Shown: piece after piece, positions 1 through 38,917 of the stretch
Position numbering within the stretch: the first letter of the stretch is position 1
Layout of the letters: every line of letters begins with the position of its first letter
IMG/VR virus record: IMGVR_UViG_3300009154_000107
Location: 1 to 39,874 of that record
Source of the DNA: a virus
Length of the DNA stretch: 39,874 nucleotides
Strand: one strand, 5' to 3'
Position numbers and translations under genes: made by a program
Notes under the pieces: generated by a model
Seen by the model: the letters and a program-made list of their open reading frames with translations, nothing else
What the model was told of the DNA's origin: nothing
The model's database searches: none

Positions 1-804
1 ACTGGTGTCAATGTCTATGGTGATCTTAGCATAGGTCCGATTGTCTATATAATGTGTTGGATTCCCAACCACTTGACTCAGCGACAATGTGCGATATCGA
101 GGTGCTTCAGGCCATGCAAGGAATTCTGGTATTTCTCCAGGACGCCAGAACATCATGCCCCGATCATCATCCCAGGCATCTGCATAGTTGTGCGGAAATG
201 CATTTCCAGTATACCATATTTTACCTGTGTTTTGTCTCTTATGGAAATGTCCAGAAAATACCTGCTGCTGGTTTACAAAATGTGTAGCATTCAACAGGCC
301 ATGATCTGGCATTTCTACCATAGCATTCATCTTGAAACGCGGCAGTTCAAAATGACCAAACATGTAGGGCGATTTCAATTTTGGTACACGTTTCCAATCA
401 TCTGCCACCAACCAAGGCACAAAAGCCACATCGCCAATTTCTGTCATAGTGTCTATAACACGGATCTTTGGAAACTGTGTGATATAGGGTATGCTGTGGA
501 TTTCATATTTGTCCCGGTAGAACAGATCGTGATTGCCCAGTATGAATATGGTATGATCAAAATAATCATTCAGTAATTGTAAACCACTAACAGAATAATT
601 TAAAGTGGAAATATTGATAGCAGAACGCATGTGGTGAAAATCACCACCAAAGATACAGGTTTTTATACCGCGAGTTTCAGCCTGTTGGATCATCCATTTG
701 ATAAAACGCTCACAGGAGTCGTTGTGCTCTCTACTGTTGTTTTTCATACCATAATGGAGATCAGTAAATACGGCAACATGCGAAAAGTCTGGATCTTGAG
801 CCAT
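1..804 (-). CDS. 47: gp47-like (SbcD/Mre11-type) recombination nuclease subunit, 3' end cut by window edge
   Basis: The first 268 residues are visible and the frame is open to base 1, so the C-terminus lies outside the window. Metallophosphoesterase motifs occur in order: DLH (D15, H17), GGD (D55), GNHD (N91, H92), H151 in a GHFEL-like context, and SGHFH (H186, H188). This is the two-metal site of SbcD/Mre11 and T4 gp47. In T4, gp47 pairs with the gp46 ATPase to resect DNA ends for recombination-dependent replication; gp46 would be expected just beyond the left edge. The ATG at 804 follows AGGGA at a suitable distance. The gene lies 118 bp downstream of gp55 on the same strand, so cotranscription is likely. 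The family call is firm; the partner is inferred. Confidence 0.9.
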   Translation of the reverse strand, partial: MAQDPDFSHVAVFTDLHYGMKNNSREHNDSCERFIKWMIQQAETRGIKTCIFGGDFHHMRSAINISTLNYSVSGLQLLNDYFDHTIFILGNHDLFYRDKYEIHSIPYITQFPKIRVIDTMTEIGDVAFVPWLVADDWKRVPKLKSPYMFGHFELPRFKMNAMVEMPDHGLLNATHFVNQQQVFSGHFHKRQNTGKIWYTGNAFPHNYADAWDDDRGMMFWRPGEIPEFLAWPEAPRYRTLSLSQVVGNPTHYIDNRTYAKITIDIDTS

Positions 805-922: not shown

Positions 923-2728
923 CTAGGGTTCTTTCTTTTGAGCAAGTTCGTTGTCAACCATTCTTGTCCACGATGGTGTAGACCCGTGCATGATCAATAT
1001 GTCATCGCGTATGTTTTGATTCTTCTTTTCAATGTTTAATATACGCATAAAACTATTGGTAATAGTCTGTGTATAATATGAAAAGGGGTTTGGCTGCTCA
1101 CTGCGACTTTCATCGAACTGCAGGCCAACCTGACTTAATTGCAGCAGTGCTTGACTTTTCATTTCTTCGATGTAGGTGTTGCCTGTGAGATAAACCTTGC
1201 CGTTTCGGCGTACTACAAAACAACCGTATTCAGTCTCGGGGCACCATACCATACCGTTATACTGGGTAGTTGGTTGGTTTGGATGACTGATCTTGTCTTT
1301 ATTCCTTAACCCTCGGCCATGTCTCTTTCCCCCATGGAAGTTTAAGGAGCTTACCTTTACTTTATTTTTGATCGGCGAGATTACTGATACCCTATAAAAT
1401 TCCCTTAACTCTCCATACGAATAATCCTTGCAGAGATGATGGGTTGTTCGATGTCCGGCTAATGCACAAAGAGCCTGGAACACATTAATGTGTTCCTTCT
1501 TTTGTTGTATATATTTACGTGCCCTACTGCCTCTGCAACTATCACTGTTGACTATAGTATCTATCAGCAGATTCTTCTGATCTGCTGATAGATTAACTAT
1601 GAATTCCATAGTTAAATCTTTGGACATCAAAGTCTTCTGGAATTCCTGCGAATGCTCACGGCAAATAGCAAAGCAGGTGTTGTTTTCTGCTATGGTTTCT
1701 GAGAATCTATACTCAAGATCATTTAGACAGCGTCTGATTCTATCTGTTTTTTTCTCTGATTTTTGCCAGATGTAAATGCATCTCAGTTCTCCATTGGCAC
1801 TGAACTCGTAATTACCTTCAGTTACTATCCAACCAGCTAATTCAACAAATGCATCATCATACAGCATGACATTATTATCGACTGGGTTACCCATCAAGAT
1901 TACGTTATTATCATCTGTTAGATATTCAACTGGTATCAGTCCATTATCGGTTACCAATTTATGACCAGGTGTAACCAGCATGTCTGTGATATGATTGGTG
2001 ATCTTATGCATCAGCCCATCATACTCTCCCCGATAGATCGATTTGATCTTAGACCATGTCAAATTACCATTGGAATATGATAGTATAATATCGGATTCGT
2101 TTATGTCATTCATTCCCAGCCAACCTCTCTGGGTCAACGCCTCGTCACCATCTGCTATGCAGTATCCGCGCCAGTTGCCCCTGTGCCCATAACGCTCGAC
2201 TAATTTCATAAACATTAATGCAAGGTTGTTGGTCATTTTGCCATGCTCTTTGCAGAAGTACCCGTTCTCAAGACCGTCTTTCCAATGACTCTTAAGAACA
2301 CATTCCAATTGGTTGTTTCTAAGTATAAAGTGCTGAAACGGGGGAAAATTACAACGTATGTGCCTCTCTGATTCAGTTTTGGCTTTGTCAATCTTGTCAG
2401 GATTTAATGGTATATGGTCATGTGTCATGACCCTGATAACGATACTTTCTATTGGAATATCATCGATTGAAATTTTGCTTTTGAAATCTTTAACACCGCG
2501 ACCTATCTGCTCTTTTTTCTCCAATGTCTGCAGTTCCAGCAGTTTTTTCTTGCGTGCATCATTGATGCGAGTTTCAGTTATAGCTGCCTTGCTAGACACT
2601 ATGAAATCGTATTTGGCATGTGTTGGGTCAAGGTAACTACAATAACTGGTTTTGCTACGGTGTATCTCCTCTAAAAGTTCCTTGTTTGTAAGGTATTTTA
2701 TTTTTATGGGGGGAGGTGATACTGCCAT
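923..2728 (-). CDS. 55: Late-transcription sigma factor gp55-like, interrupted by an intein
   Basis: The precursor is 601 aa and should splice to 273 aa (189-residue N-extein plus 84-residue C-extein). The C-extein motifs ALLQLSQVGLQFDE, PFSYYTQTITNSF and RILNIEKKNQNIRDD match the sigma region 2 core-binding helices of gp55 proteins from marine T4-like phages. The N-extein has KYLTNKELLEEI and GHRGNWRGY. T4 gp55 (185 aa) directs host RNA polymerase to TATAAATA late promoters, and boxes of that kind occur in this window. I chose the ATG at 2728, which has AAAGGA 5-10 bases upstream; an in-frame start at 2782 lacks a good ribosome site. The intein splits a highly conserved region-2 segment, so the unspliced protein should not work. 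A sigma70-type promoter lies upstream at 2949-2977. Confidence 0.85.
   Translation of the reverse strand: MAVSPPPIKIKYLTNKELLEEIHRSKTSYCSYLDPTHAKYDFIVSSKAAITETRINDARKKKLLELQTLEKKEQIGRGVKDFKSKISIDDIPIESIVIRVMTHDHIPLNPDKIDKAKTESERHIRCNFPPFQHFILRNNQLECVLKSHWKDGLENGYFCKEHGKMTNNLALMFMKLVERYGHRGNWRGYCIADGDEALTQRGWLGMNDINESDIILSYSNGNLTWSKIKSIYRGEYDGLMHKITNHITDMLVTPGHKLVTDNGLIPVEYLTDDNNVILMGNPVDNNVMLYDDAFVELAGWIVTEGNYEFSANGELRCIYIWQKSEKKTDRIRRCLNDLEYRFSETIAENNTCFAICREHSQEFQKTLMSKDLTMEFIVNLSADQKNLLIDTIVNSDSCRGSRARKYIQQKKEHINVFQALCALAGHRTTHHLCKDYSYGELREFYRVSVISPIKNKVKVSSLNFHGGKRHGRGLRNKDKISHPNQPTTQYNGMVWCPETEYGCFVVRRNGKVYLTGNTYIEEMKSQALLQLSQVGLQFDESRSEQPNPFSYYTQTITNSFMRILNIEKKNQNIRDDILIMHGSTPSWTRMVDNELAQKKEP
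1178..2161 (-). other. Intein (328 aa) with LAGLIDADG-type homing endonuclease domain, inside gp55
   Basis: The intein runs from Cys190 to Asn517 of the precursor, and Thr518 is the +1 nucleophile. Block A is CIADGDEALTQRGW, typical of an N-splicing domain. Block B contains TPGHKL, giving the TxxH signature. Two endonuclease-type helices follow: VELAGWIVTEG at 295-305, and NLLIDTIVNSDS at 386-397, where the usual terminal DG is DS. The C-terminal splice domain ends YGCFVVRRNGKVYLTGN, with Gly instead of the usual penultimate His. Removing it joins WRGY directly to TYIEEM, restoring a continuous gp55 core. Cleavage by the endonuclease is uncertain because the second motif is imperfect. Splicing looks likely because all terminal catalytic residues except the penultimate His are present. 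Confidence 0.9.
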
Positions 2729-3173: not shown

Positions 3174-4259
3174 TTGAGTTTTCTTGGTTTTACATCACTT
3201 AATCCATTCAGTGAAGACAAACCCTCTGCTCCACCAAATCCTTCTGCAGGTGCTGCAGGCCTGCCACCACCACCTGGTGGAACAATATCAGCATCCGCCA
3301 GTGCGGTTCCTGCAGTAAGTTCAGCAATCTCTGCATCTAACAGAGCAGTCTCTGCCTCTAGTCAGGCAACTGCTGCACCAGTAGGTGCAACAAATATTGG
3401 TACAGTAATTGCCCGCCAATCTGCAAATCAAGCAGCAACTCCCCAACCACAATCGTTGAATCCCATACCCATACCCCCGCCGCCGCCAGCACAGCAGAAT
3501 CTCAATGATGCTGCAGGCAGGCGAGTAAGACTACGCCCAAAGCCCAATGCCATGCGTCAGATATTGGGAAGTGCTGGCAGCGGAGGAGGCCTGTTGAGTC
3601 CACTATACCTCACCAATGGCATGTTGTTTCCGTATCAACCTGTGATCACATACAGCCAAGATGTGATCTATAATGCTATGGAAATAGTTCATGCCAACCA
3701 AGATTTTTACTCATACAGCAAGACTCCGGCACTGAAATTAACAGTTGAAGGTGAATTTACGGTACAGAATCAGTCAGAAGGTATATACGCATTGGCCTGT
3801 ATACATTTTCTCAGAACTGTCACCAAGATGGATTTTGGCAATGGACAAAATCCCGGGCAACCACCACCGGTGTTGCTGTTTGATGCCTACGGTCAATGGA
3901 TGTTTAATGCACTGCCGGTGATCGTAACACAATTTTCAGTAACATTACCAAAAGACATTGATTATGTAGCAGTAGGGACCAGTTCCTCGGCTAATAATAC
4001 TCTGGTAACTGCGCAACCAACTCCAGCAACAGCCGGCGCTGTTGCAAGTACATTTGATGCTATCAATAATCCAACACTGGCCGCTAACAACAGCAATGCA
4101 CCCGGTGGCACTACTAACGCCCAAGGTTATGCATGGTTACCATCGGTGTTTAGCATAACAGTTCAATTGACTGTGCAGAATACTCCGCAACGTCTACGTG
4201 CCTTTAATCTAAATGAATTCCGCACCGGACAATTGTTGACACAAGGAACCTGGGTATGA
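3174..4259 (+). CDS. Baseplate tail-tube-associated protein, gp48/gp54-like
   Basis: The 361-aa product has a Pro/Ala/Ser-rich N-terminal stretch (about residues 12-115). A conserved domain follows with FPYQPVITYSQDVIY, VHANQDFYSYSKTPALKL, EFTVQNQSEGIYALACIHFL and PPPVLLFDAYG. This pattern is typical of the gp48/gp54 family in T4-like phages. Those proteins sit on the baseplate hub and cap or start the tail tube. The length is close to T4 gp48 (364 aa). The start is TTG with GGGGGG 8 bases upstream, which gives the N-terminus MSFLGF; an ATG at 3155 is out of frame. The gene overlaps gp53 by four bases (ATGA). Whether it is the gp48 or the gp54 equivalent cannot be settled here. Confidence 0.65.
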   Translation: MSFLGFTSLNPFSEDKPSAPPNPSAGAAGLPPPPGGTISASASAVPAVSSAISASNRAVSASSQATAAPVGATNIGTVIARQSANQAATPQPQSLNPIPIPPPPPAQQNLNDAAGRRVRLRPKPNAMRQILGSAGSGGGLLSPLYLTNGMLFPYQPVITYSQDVIYNAMEIVHANQDFYSYSKTPALKLTVEGEFTVQNQSEGIYALACIHFLRTVTKMDFGNGQNPGQPPPVLLFDAYGQWMFNALPVIVTQFSVTLPKDIDYVAVGTSSSANNTLVTAQPTPATAGAVASTFDAINNPTLAANNSNAPGGTTNAQGYAWLPSVFSITVQLTVQNTPQRLRAFNLNEFRTGQLLTQGTWV

Positions 4260-12373: not shown

Positions 12374-13258
12374 CTAAGATATGCGGAAATTAATGTAGTC
12401 AACTATGGCCTTGGCCATGTCCTGACCGCAGTAGGTCTCAAAACCTTCAAAGCCCGGGGCACTGTTGGCTTCACAAACCTTGAAGCCGTCTATATCGAAC
12501 AACAGGTCAACTCCTGCTATGTCAAGCCCTAGAATGCGAGCAGTTTCGCGAGCGATAAATTCAATTTCTGGAGTGATTTCATGTGGAGAACCGGTGCCGC
12601 CATTGCTGATGTTGGCCCGAAAGTCATTAGCCGAAGTACGTTGCATAGCTCCGATGACCTTGCCACCTACGACCCACACACGCAGATCGGTTCCGGGCTT
12701 GTATCCGATATATTCCTGAATGATCAAACTCTTGTTGGTACTGAGGCTGTTGATCAATTCCATAACTTCGGCAAAACTGTTGCGGTCCTTGCAGAGATAC
12801 ACACCCTTGCCATAACTGCCAGTTATGACTTTGACTACGCAAGGCCAACCTATCTCACTAGAGACCAAATCTTCGTTGATTGGCCAACGTACCAGCATGG
12901 TCTTGGGAATTGGTATACCGTGACGAGCCAGCAACTGGCTGGTTTCTAATTTGTCCTTAACACGGTCAATGCTTTCGCCATTGTTGATCACCGGAACACC
13001 AAGGTTTTCCATCTGTCTCATGGCTGCAAGACAAAAATAATTTGAGCCACTACCAGTTCTTGCCAACACTGCATCAGGCATGTCCGCTCGTATGCCGTCT
13101 AGCCAAATGTTAGCAAGGTCTTTTTTATTGACCACTAGATCTAATGTATCTGGATGTACCAGGATGCTTGTGATGTTTTGATCAGCAAAACTCTCTAGAA
13201 GACGACGATTCTCATATTCCTGAATAGTTTTTCTAGAAAGGATCCAAATGTTTGCCAT
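12374..13258 (-). CDS. RimK-like ATP-grasp ligase
   Basis: The 294-aa length is typical of RimK. Visible features are SIDRVKDKLETSQLLARHGI (linker before the grasp fold), PCVVKVITGSYGKGVYL (K143 and the glycine-rich loop), IIQEYI (adenine-side contacts), DLRVWVVGGKVIGAM, and the metal-binding end GVDLLFDIDGFKVCEANSAPG (D251, E263, N265). E. coli RimK adds glutamates to the C-terminus of ribosomal protein S6; other members ligate amino acids to different acceptors. The substrate here is unknown, with host S6 or a phage protein as candidates. It lies between the HARP-like gene and the helicase on the same strand. Both an extended -10 promoter and a late box precede it, and there is no convincing ribosome site. 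Confidence 0.85.
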   Translation of the reverse strand: MANIWILSRKTIQEYENRRLLESFADQNITSILVHPDTLDLVVNKKDLANIWLDGIRADMPDAVLARTGSGSNYFCLAAMRQMENLGVPVINNGESIDRVKDKLETSQLLARHGIPIPKTMLVRWPINEDLVSSEIGWPCVVKVITGSYGKGVYLCKDRNSFAEVMELINSLSTNKSLIIQEYIGYKPGTDLRVWVVGGKVIGAMQRTSANDFRANISNGGTGSPHEITPEIEFIARETARILGLDIAGVDLLFDIDGFKVCEANSAPGFEGFETYCGQDMAKAIVDYINFRIS

Positions 13259-38263: not shown

Positions 38264-38917
38264 TCACAAGTCTTCTGCCAGCATGGGAAATTGGCTCAAA
38301 ATGATCTGCCAACAGGACTCTGCAATCTCACGGTGTTCTTTCTGTGTGCCGTTGCCGCGGCGTAGGTCGCAGTAGTGTACCCAACTGCGCAGAGTACCGG
38401 CCATATATAGTCTGCTATTGGTTAGACCCTCGGGCAACACTGCTCTGGCCTGTTCCTTGGCAATGTTGTGATCAATTGCCCATTTGTAGACATCCATGGC
38501 CTGCTGGATCAGCTGCGCCTGTTGATCTGCCCAGGCAATTTCCAGCTCCTGATCTGTGATCTCAATGCTGTTCTGACGGTTCTTGGTATCCTGCAGTCTA
38601 GCTTCGCGGTTGCTAAACCCTAAATTACCTGTAGGATCAGCATAGCGTTGGCTGAACTCCTGGAAACTAAAACTCTTATGACGCAGAATCTGGCGAGCAA
38701 TGTCACGAGTGGTGTTGATCTCAATGACCAATTGAACCATTTCTAATGGCGACCAGTGTGCGTGGCTTATAAGATAACGTATCAGTTTGGCACTGGTGCT
38801 GTGATTCTGCTGGTTGGTGGGATTTGATACCCTTGCACAATATGCTACCAGCTCTTCAGCTGTGGTGCATTCTGTAATCGTAGGTTTGGTAATGGCTATG
38901 AGACGACAGTTTTTCAT
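38264..38917 (-). CDS. thyX: Flavin-dependent thymidylate synthase ThyX
   Basis: The 217-aa length is usual for ThyX. HWSPLEM (54-60) corresponds to the family's HxSPxEH, and RHKSFSFQEFSQRY (79-92) to the ThyX signature RHRxxSxNExSxRY, with Lys replacing the third residue. EQARAVLP (155-162) and the C-terminal WVHYCDLRRGNGTQKEHREI complete the set. ThyX makes dTMP from dUMP using FAD, NADPH and methylene-tetrahydrofolate, supplying thymidine for phage replication. No other start exists near the ATG at 38917. A sigma70-like promoter lies so close that the mRNA may be leaderless. Confidence 0.93.
   Translation of the reverse strand: MKNCRLIAITKPTITECTTAEELVAYCARVSNPTNQQNHSTSAKLIRYLISHAHWSPLEMVQLVIEINTTRDIARQILRHKSFSFQEFSQRYADPTGNLGFSNREARLQDTKNRQNSIEITDQELEIAWADQQAQLIQQAMDVYKWAIDHNIAKEQARAVLPEGLTNSRLYMAGTLRSWVHYCDLRRGNGTQKEHREIAESCWQIILSQFPMLAEDL

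Follow-up and report, generated by a model that had tools for sequence, protein, structure and literature searches.

A predicted class 1-type intein with a LAGLIDADG endonuclease interrupts the T4 gp55-type late sigma factor gene of an uncultured phage

Inteins generally favour highly conserved sites (PMC2814812). Described full-length homologues of the intein reported here (20–28% identity) include the portal inteins of GX15bay and Gordonia phages, the TerL intein of GordTnk2, and the Mycobacterium phage methylase, phiTE RNR and Acinetobacter phage PhoH inteins, all hosted by packaging, replication or nucleotide-metabolism genes, whereas the intein described below lies in a transcription initiation factor. 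Class 1 phage inteins vary in their penultimate residue, and the RDF intein of phage Bethlehem splices with a penultimate Gly whose replacement by His slows splicing (PMC5050341). In phage T4, residues E70, D74 and E77 of gp55 helix H3 contact the clamp helices of RNA polymerase (PMC7892883).

We analysed a 39,874-nucleotide stretch of viral DNA, hereafter the window (IMG/VR record IMGVR_UViG_3300009154_000107), in which translation of positions 926–2728 on the minus strand yields 601 residues comprising C190 through N517 and then T518 as the +1 residue. The features of this locus are as follows.

926 to 2728, minus strand: precursor of a gp55-like late sigma factor, 601 aa, with its ATG at 2728 and its stop codon at 923–925, identified by phrog matches.
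2162 to 2728, minus strand: N-extein, residues 1–189, ending in GNWRGY, placed by alignment to intein-free homologues up to WRGY.
1178 to 2161, minus strand: intein, 328 aa, Cys1 to Asn328 (C190–N517), ending in VYLTGN, placed by alignments, conserved residues and fold.
1871 to 2161 (approximate), minus strand: N-terminal Hint half with blocks A and B, including Cys1 and TPGH at intein residues 64–67 (1961–1972).
1307 to 1870 (approximate), minus strand: LAGLIDADG endonuclease domain, recognized by conserved residues, family HMM and fold.
1811 to 1846, minus strand: LAGLIDADG motif 1, VELAGWIVTEGN.
1535 to 1573, minus strand: LAGLIDADG motif 2, KNLLIDTIVNSDS.
1178 to 1306, minus strand: C-terminal Hint half with blocks F and G, including Cys307 (F:4) and Thr326-Gly327-Asn328.
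926 to 1177, minus strand: C-extein, residues 518–601, from the +1 Thr518 (TYIEEM...), with the RNA polymerase-binding helix of sigma region 2.
1 to 804, minus strand: downstream gene for an SbcD/gp47-like nuclease subunit, running out of the window, resembling an ORF at 3963–4994 of contig L004 and annotated neighbours.

Our results confirm, well outside the reach of chance, that a 328-aa intein splits the T4 gp55-type late sigma factor specified by the gene at 926–2728. The initial annotation had named a gp55-like late sigma factor as the host, and profile searches bore this out, with phrog_12791 (late sigma family; E = 5e-80) matching residues 9–193 plus one additional segment and phrog_234 (T4-type) matching C-extein residues 518–589 (E = 1.8e-14), such that the two matches flank the insert on both sides. 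The boundaries it gave (C190 to N517, with T518 as +1; 1178–2161) are exact by translation, and the predicted spliced product is 189 + 84 = 273 aa. Because a second IMG/VR contig (L001) carries an identical ORF (100%), an assembly error is unlikely. The gp55–gp47 gene order of the window is also that of three intein-free relatives (L004, L019 and L020). Elsewhere on the minus strand, the window has, among the tail genes, an ORF (12377–13258) whose product resembles phrog_2599 (ribosomal protein S6 glutaminyl transferase), and it encodes a thymidylate synthase of the phrog_85 family (38267–38917) covering only positions 374–582 of the 866-position profile.

The exteins are homologous to sigma region 2 of T4 gp55: an HMM comparison pairs the extein profile with chain 7D7C_F at E = 6.5e-11, and the fold predicted for the intein-free protein aligns with T4 gp55 at a Foldseek probability of 1.00 and an r.m.s.d. 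of 1.9 over 91 columns. Intein-free gp55 homologues are contiguous across the insertion site and lack the insert; the WRGY/TY junction (slash marking the splice point) is uninterrupted in L004 and others and in a list of 83 frames, with intein-free homologues reading WRGY/TYLEEM.

Profile searches with the window protein alone gave a sub-threshold Pfam match (Intein_splicing, E = 0.056) and no match to NCBIfam, and a phmmer search of the PDB returned a chance match only. As the window copy by itself is too weak a query, the identity of the insert was settled from family-wide HMM matches: among 46 distinct family inteins, 28 matched TIGR01445, 20 matched LAGLIDADG_3 (best 1e-8) and 16 matched Intein_splicing (best 1.6e-6). 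The Hint and LAGLIDADG domains for which the initial annotation suggested an HMM search were thus found across the family, but in the window copy alone they stayed below curated cut-offs. The N-terminal Hint half matched the Spl DnaX mini-intein (E = 2.5e-4). An AlphaFold2 model of the intein was of high confidence (pLDDT 93.5, pTM 0.91), and in a Foldseek search of the PDB it retrieved the TliVMA intein first (E = 1.9e-15), followed by PhoVMA, PI-PfuI, PI-SceI and I-DmoI. The Hint fold of a class 1 intein is thereby seen both in the model and in the family HMM matches.

The splicing residues are those of a class 1 intein, with a nucleophilic Cys at position 1, the block B TxxH, a terminal Asn and a +1 Thr or Ser. 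Cys1, TPxH, Cys307 and Asn328 are conserved in 61 of 61 distinct full inteins, and the +1 residue is Thr in 75 and Ser in 14 of 89 inteins. The penultimate residue is Gly in 59 of the 61 rather than the usual class 1 His, which is no bar to class 1 membership because the Bethlehem RDF intein also has Gly (PMC5050341). We also considered a class 3 mechanism, given the F:4 Cys (61/61) and G:5 Thr (58/61) among the distinct inteins, and rejected it, as Cys1 is invariant and position B:12 is L, F, I or M rather than Trp. Hint codons are under strong purifying selection, with a median dN/dS of ~0.10 compared with 0.17 for endonuclease codons over 26 close pairs, some of which are duplicates from repeated contigs. 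In block A the window intein differs from its family at two residues (V2I and T6D), and it departs at 4 of 59 splicing-domain positions (family mean 1.7, maximum 7). From its sequence, autocatalytic splicing of this copy is very likely, and the purifying selection on Hint codons lends it indirect support. As judged by the conserved residues and by precedent, Cys1 would attack the Tyr189–Cys190 bond, the N-extein would be transferred to Thr518, Asn517 would then cyclise, and self-excision of the Hint domain would leave a ligated 273-aa sigma factor.

The paired LAGLIDADG motifs noted at first sight were substantiated: both are present together with the acidic residues E115 and D207 (each kept in 60 of 61 distinct inteins, and both retained in the window copy), within a mixed alpha-beta fold that matches the LAGLIDADG nuclease I-DmoI (E = 9e-8). 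In a leave-one-out comparison of 46 inteins, the window endonuclease is changed at 7 of 35 near-invariant positions (N134K, G136E, A139T, R196K, G208S, K220Q and K251E) and is the most deviant of all, the other 45 averaging 1.2 such changes with a maximum of 4. The endonuclease of this copy is probably decaying, and its capacity for cutting and homing is doubtful. In a separate case, the full-length gp55 intein of L032 has both acidic positions altered (E115D and D207N) and an endonuclease dN/dS of about 0.45, above the typical value, which suggests a recent loss of cutting.

The family is widespread at this one site. Of 154 relatives of the intein in IMG/VR, each of the best 80 is inserted in gp55 at this codon boundary, and we found the occupied junction pattern on 93 contigs and the empty junction on at least 120. 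Some 1,100 records of isolate phages match gp55, and Synechococcus phage B23 was the only one in whose gp55 the intein family was seen; its unannotated gp55 intein (MN695335.1, 174984–176498; QGT54902.1) offers a practical experimental system. A scan of genome contigs added a single gp55 intein, L394; its contig belongs to a Prevotella MAG and is probably a phage contig binned with that MAG. More distant full-length relatives (24–26%) occur in large bacterial or prophage ORFs of 680–1,479 aa from Bacillota, Paceibacterota, Paracidovorax citrulli and a proteobacterial MAG (L395, L396, L397 and L398). Two contigs, L096 and L108, encode a 948-aa gp55 frame with two inteins; the one at the usual site has a degenerate end (VYQNGN), and the other, a different LAGLIDADG-type intein of 325 aa, lies deeper in region 2 at QIIKN/C...SFN/CFRRV.

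Comparison of inteins with their hosts strongly supports mobility of the family, which behaves as a genetic parasite that spreads. When occupied and empty alleles are mapped onto a tree of 199 gp55 exteins, at least 34 changes are required (gains and losses being indistinguishable in this count), 17 of them forced by well-supported branches. Intein and extein trees conflict, each partition rejecting the other's tree in AU tests that used fast trees (P = 6.7e-8 and 1e-48). The inteins of L269 and L244 are 99.4% identical over 1,008 bases, and their flanks are ~70% identical, with the drop falling at the junction, from the first 30 bases out; together with the trees, this pair marks horizontal transfer into the same site, as expected of a homing element. 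In the sister pair L272 (intein) and L311 (empty), gp55 is 96.6% identical and synteny is conserved. The same gp55 site also holds eroded inteins of 236 and 311 aa and endonuclease-free inteins of 147, 151, 152 and 167 aa, and the coexistence of empty, full, eroded and endonuclease-free alleles therefore describes a classic homing cycle. The 147–167 aa mini-inteins of L264, L256, L192/L236/L250 and L237 keep all splicing residues. In such a cycle, endonucleases of the family would cut intein-free gp55 genes in co-infecting phages, a step we infer, and the intein would be copied into the cut genes, a transfer evident in the sequences.

A tentative alternative, which we hold to be unlikely yet the best-placed of the competitors, is that the window intein is a remnant that no longer moves, having become fixed in this phage lineage and passed down vertically. 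The seven altered near-invariant endonuclease positions, the most among the 46 inteins, speak for it. The nearest gp55 relatives, however, include empty alleles (E_L107, 78% identical), and several close relatives carry far more distant inteins (in I_L267 the exteins are 72% identical and the inteins 44%), which points to exchange of the element within this clade. A remnant may thus describe the window copy today, but it is excluded for the family. The initial suggestion of a mobile element accordingly stands firmly for the family and is doubtful for this copy. The reading that we prefer, at a probability of about 0.93, is that the insert represents a class 1-type intein bearing a LAGLIDADG homing endonuclease, that it splices and belongs to a homing family, and that the endonuclease of this copy appears to be decaying; in this phage it would probably be a resident element that still splices and has perhaps lost homing.

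The insertion site bears on what the intein might do to its host. Alignment to 7D7C places the junction between T4 gp55 Tyr63 and Thr64, in the loop just before helix H3, and in a model of the L004 protein (overall pLDDT 76) it falls in the loop at 183–186 between two helices, the latter of which corresponds to T4 H3, consistent with the original placement of the site in the core-binding part of sigma region 2 (PMC7892883). Since the site directly precedes the clamp-binding helix, the unspliced precursor is plausibly inactive and unable to bind polymerase. The 10-residue segment around the junction ranks 5 of 256 for conservation in gp55 (top 2%) among loci that were not picked by the junction motif. 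Persistence would follow from such a nearly invariant site, at which only exact removal would be tolerated.

The initial annotation went further and proposed that splicing acts as a switch for late expression. Under that proposal, splicing would be slow or conditional and late transcription would wait for enough spliced gp55; the plausibly inactive precursor fits it (PMC7892883), as does the conditional splicing known for some inteins (PMC10663303), and the persistence at this site of endonuclease-free forms with intact splicing residues is a mild point in its favour. We nonetheless regard it as very improbable and found it unsupported: relatives with up to 96.6% identical gp55 are intein-free, presence is patchy and flips at least 34 times on the tree of 199 proteins, a single record has the intein among the roughly 1,100 from phages that match gp55, no sensor feature was seen, and the penultimate Gly of one phage intein goes with fast rather than slow splicing (PMC5050341). 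Slow precise deletion also accounts for the endonuclease-free forms; selfish spread alone does not explain their persistence, but slow precise loss is enough. We give the same slim chance to the joint claim that in some of these phages the intein is kept as a timing device, with gp55 splicing rather than synthesis timing the late genes and with endonuclease-free gp55 inteins retained for that role. Finally, that the insert is an ordinary domain of a sigma subfamily has next to no probability: its presence in many uncultured gp55 genes would fit, but empty sites and the Hint fold refute it, as the insert folds like an intein and has the catalytic residues of one, sister phages have exact empty alleles, its tree is incongruent with that of gp55, and near-identical copies occur in divergent hosts.

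Taken as a homing family, these inteins extend the known range of phage hosts for inteins to a transcription initiation factor. Searches of the open-licence literature gave no example in gp55 or another late sigma factor, and an earlier report may exist elsewhere; within that scope the element is of a known kind, whereas its host gene and insertion site are new and widespread. The gp55 intein is no curiosity but a recurrent, actively exchanged allele across many uncultured phages, and a single gene displays every stage of homing, from empty, full, eroded and minimal alleles to near-identical copies in divergent hosts. The minimal forms of 147–167 aa are candidate new splicing tools. As an essential activator of late genes that must first be spliced, gp55 would make it possible to measure directly what an intein costs or how it affects regulation.

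Among described systems, the best structural matches are the bifunctional LAGLIDADG (DOD) inteins PI-PfuI, TliVMA/PhoVMA and PI-SceI, which share the same split Hint domain around a two-motif nuclease, whereas the gp55 intein differs from them in host gene and lineage, is 7–17% identical to them, and has a penultimate Gly instead of His and a Cys at F:4. The Bethlehem gp51 RDF intein is likewise a class 1 phage intein with a penultimate Gly and efficient splicing, but its host is a recombination directionality factor (PMC5050341). T4 gp55 (PDB 7D7C/7D7D) is the sigma region 2 homologue of the exteins but is intein-free, and at its N terminus the window protein extends further than T4 gp55, like phrog_12791 proteins. 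The counterpart in an isolate is B23 gp289 (QGT54902.1; MN695335), annotated as a hypothetical protein or T4-like gp55 with its intein unmentioned: it carries an intein at the homologous gp55 site (FANY/C...GN/SYKED) that is 41% identical to the window intein, in a gp55 that has diverged much further (34% identity across 62 residues) and has Ser at +1.
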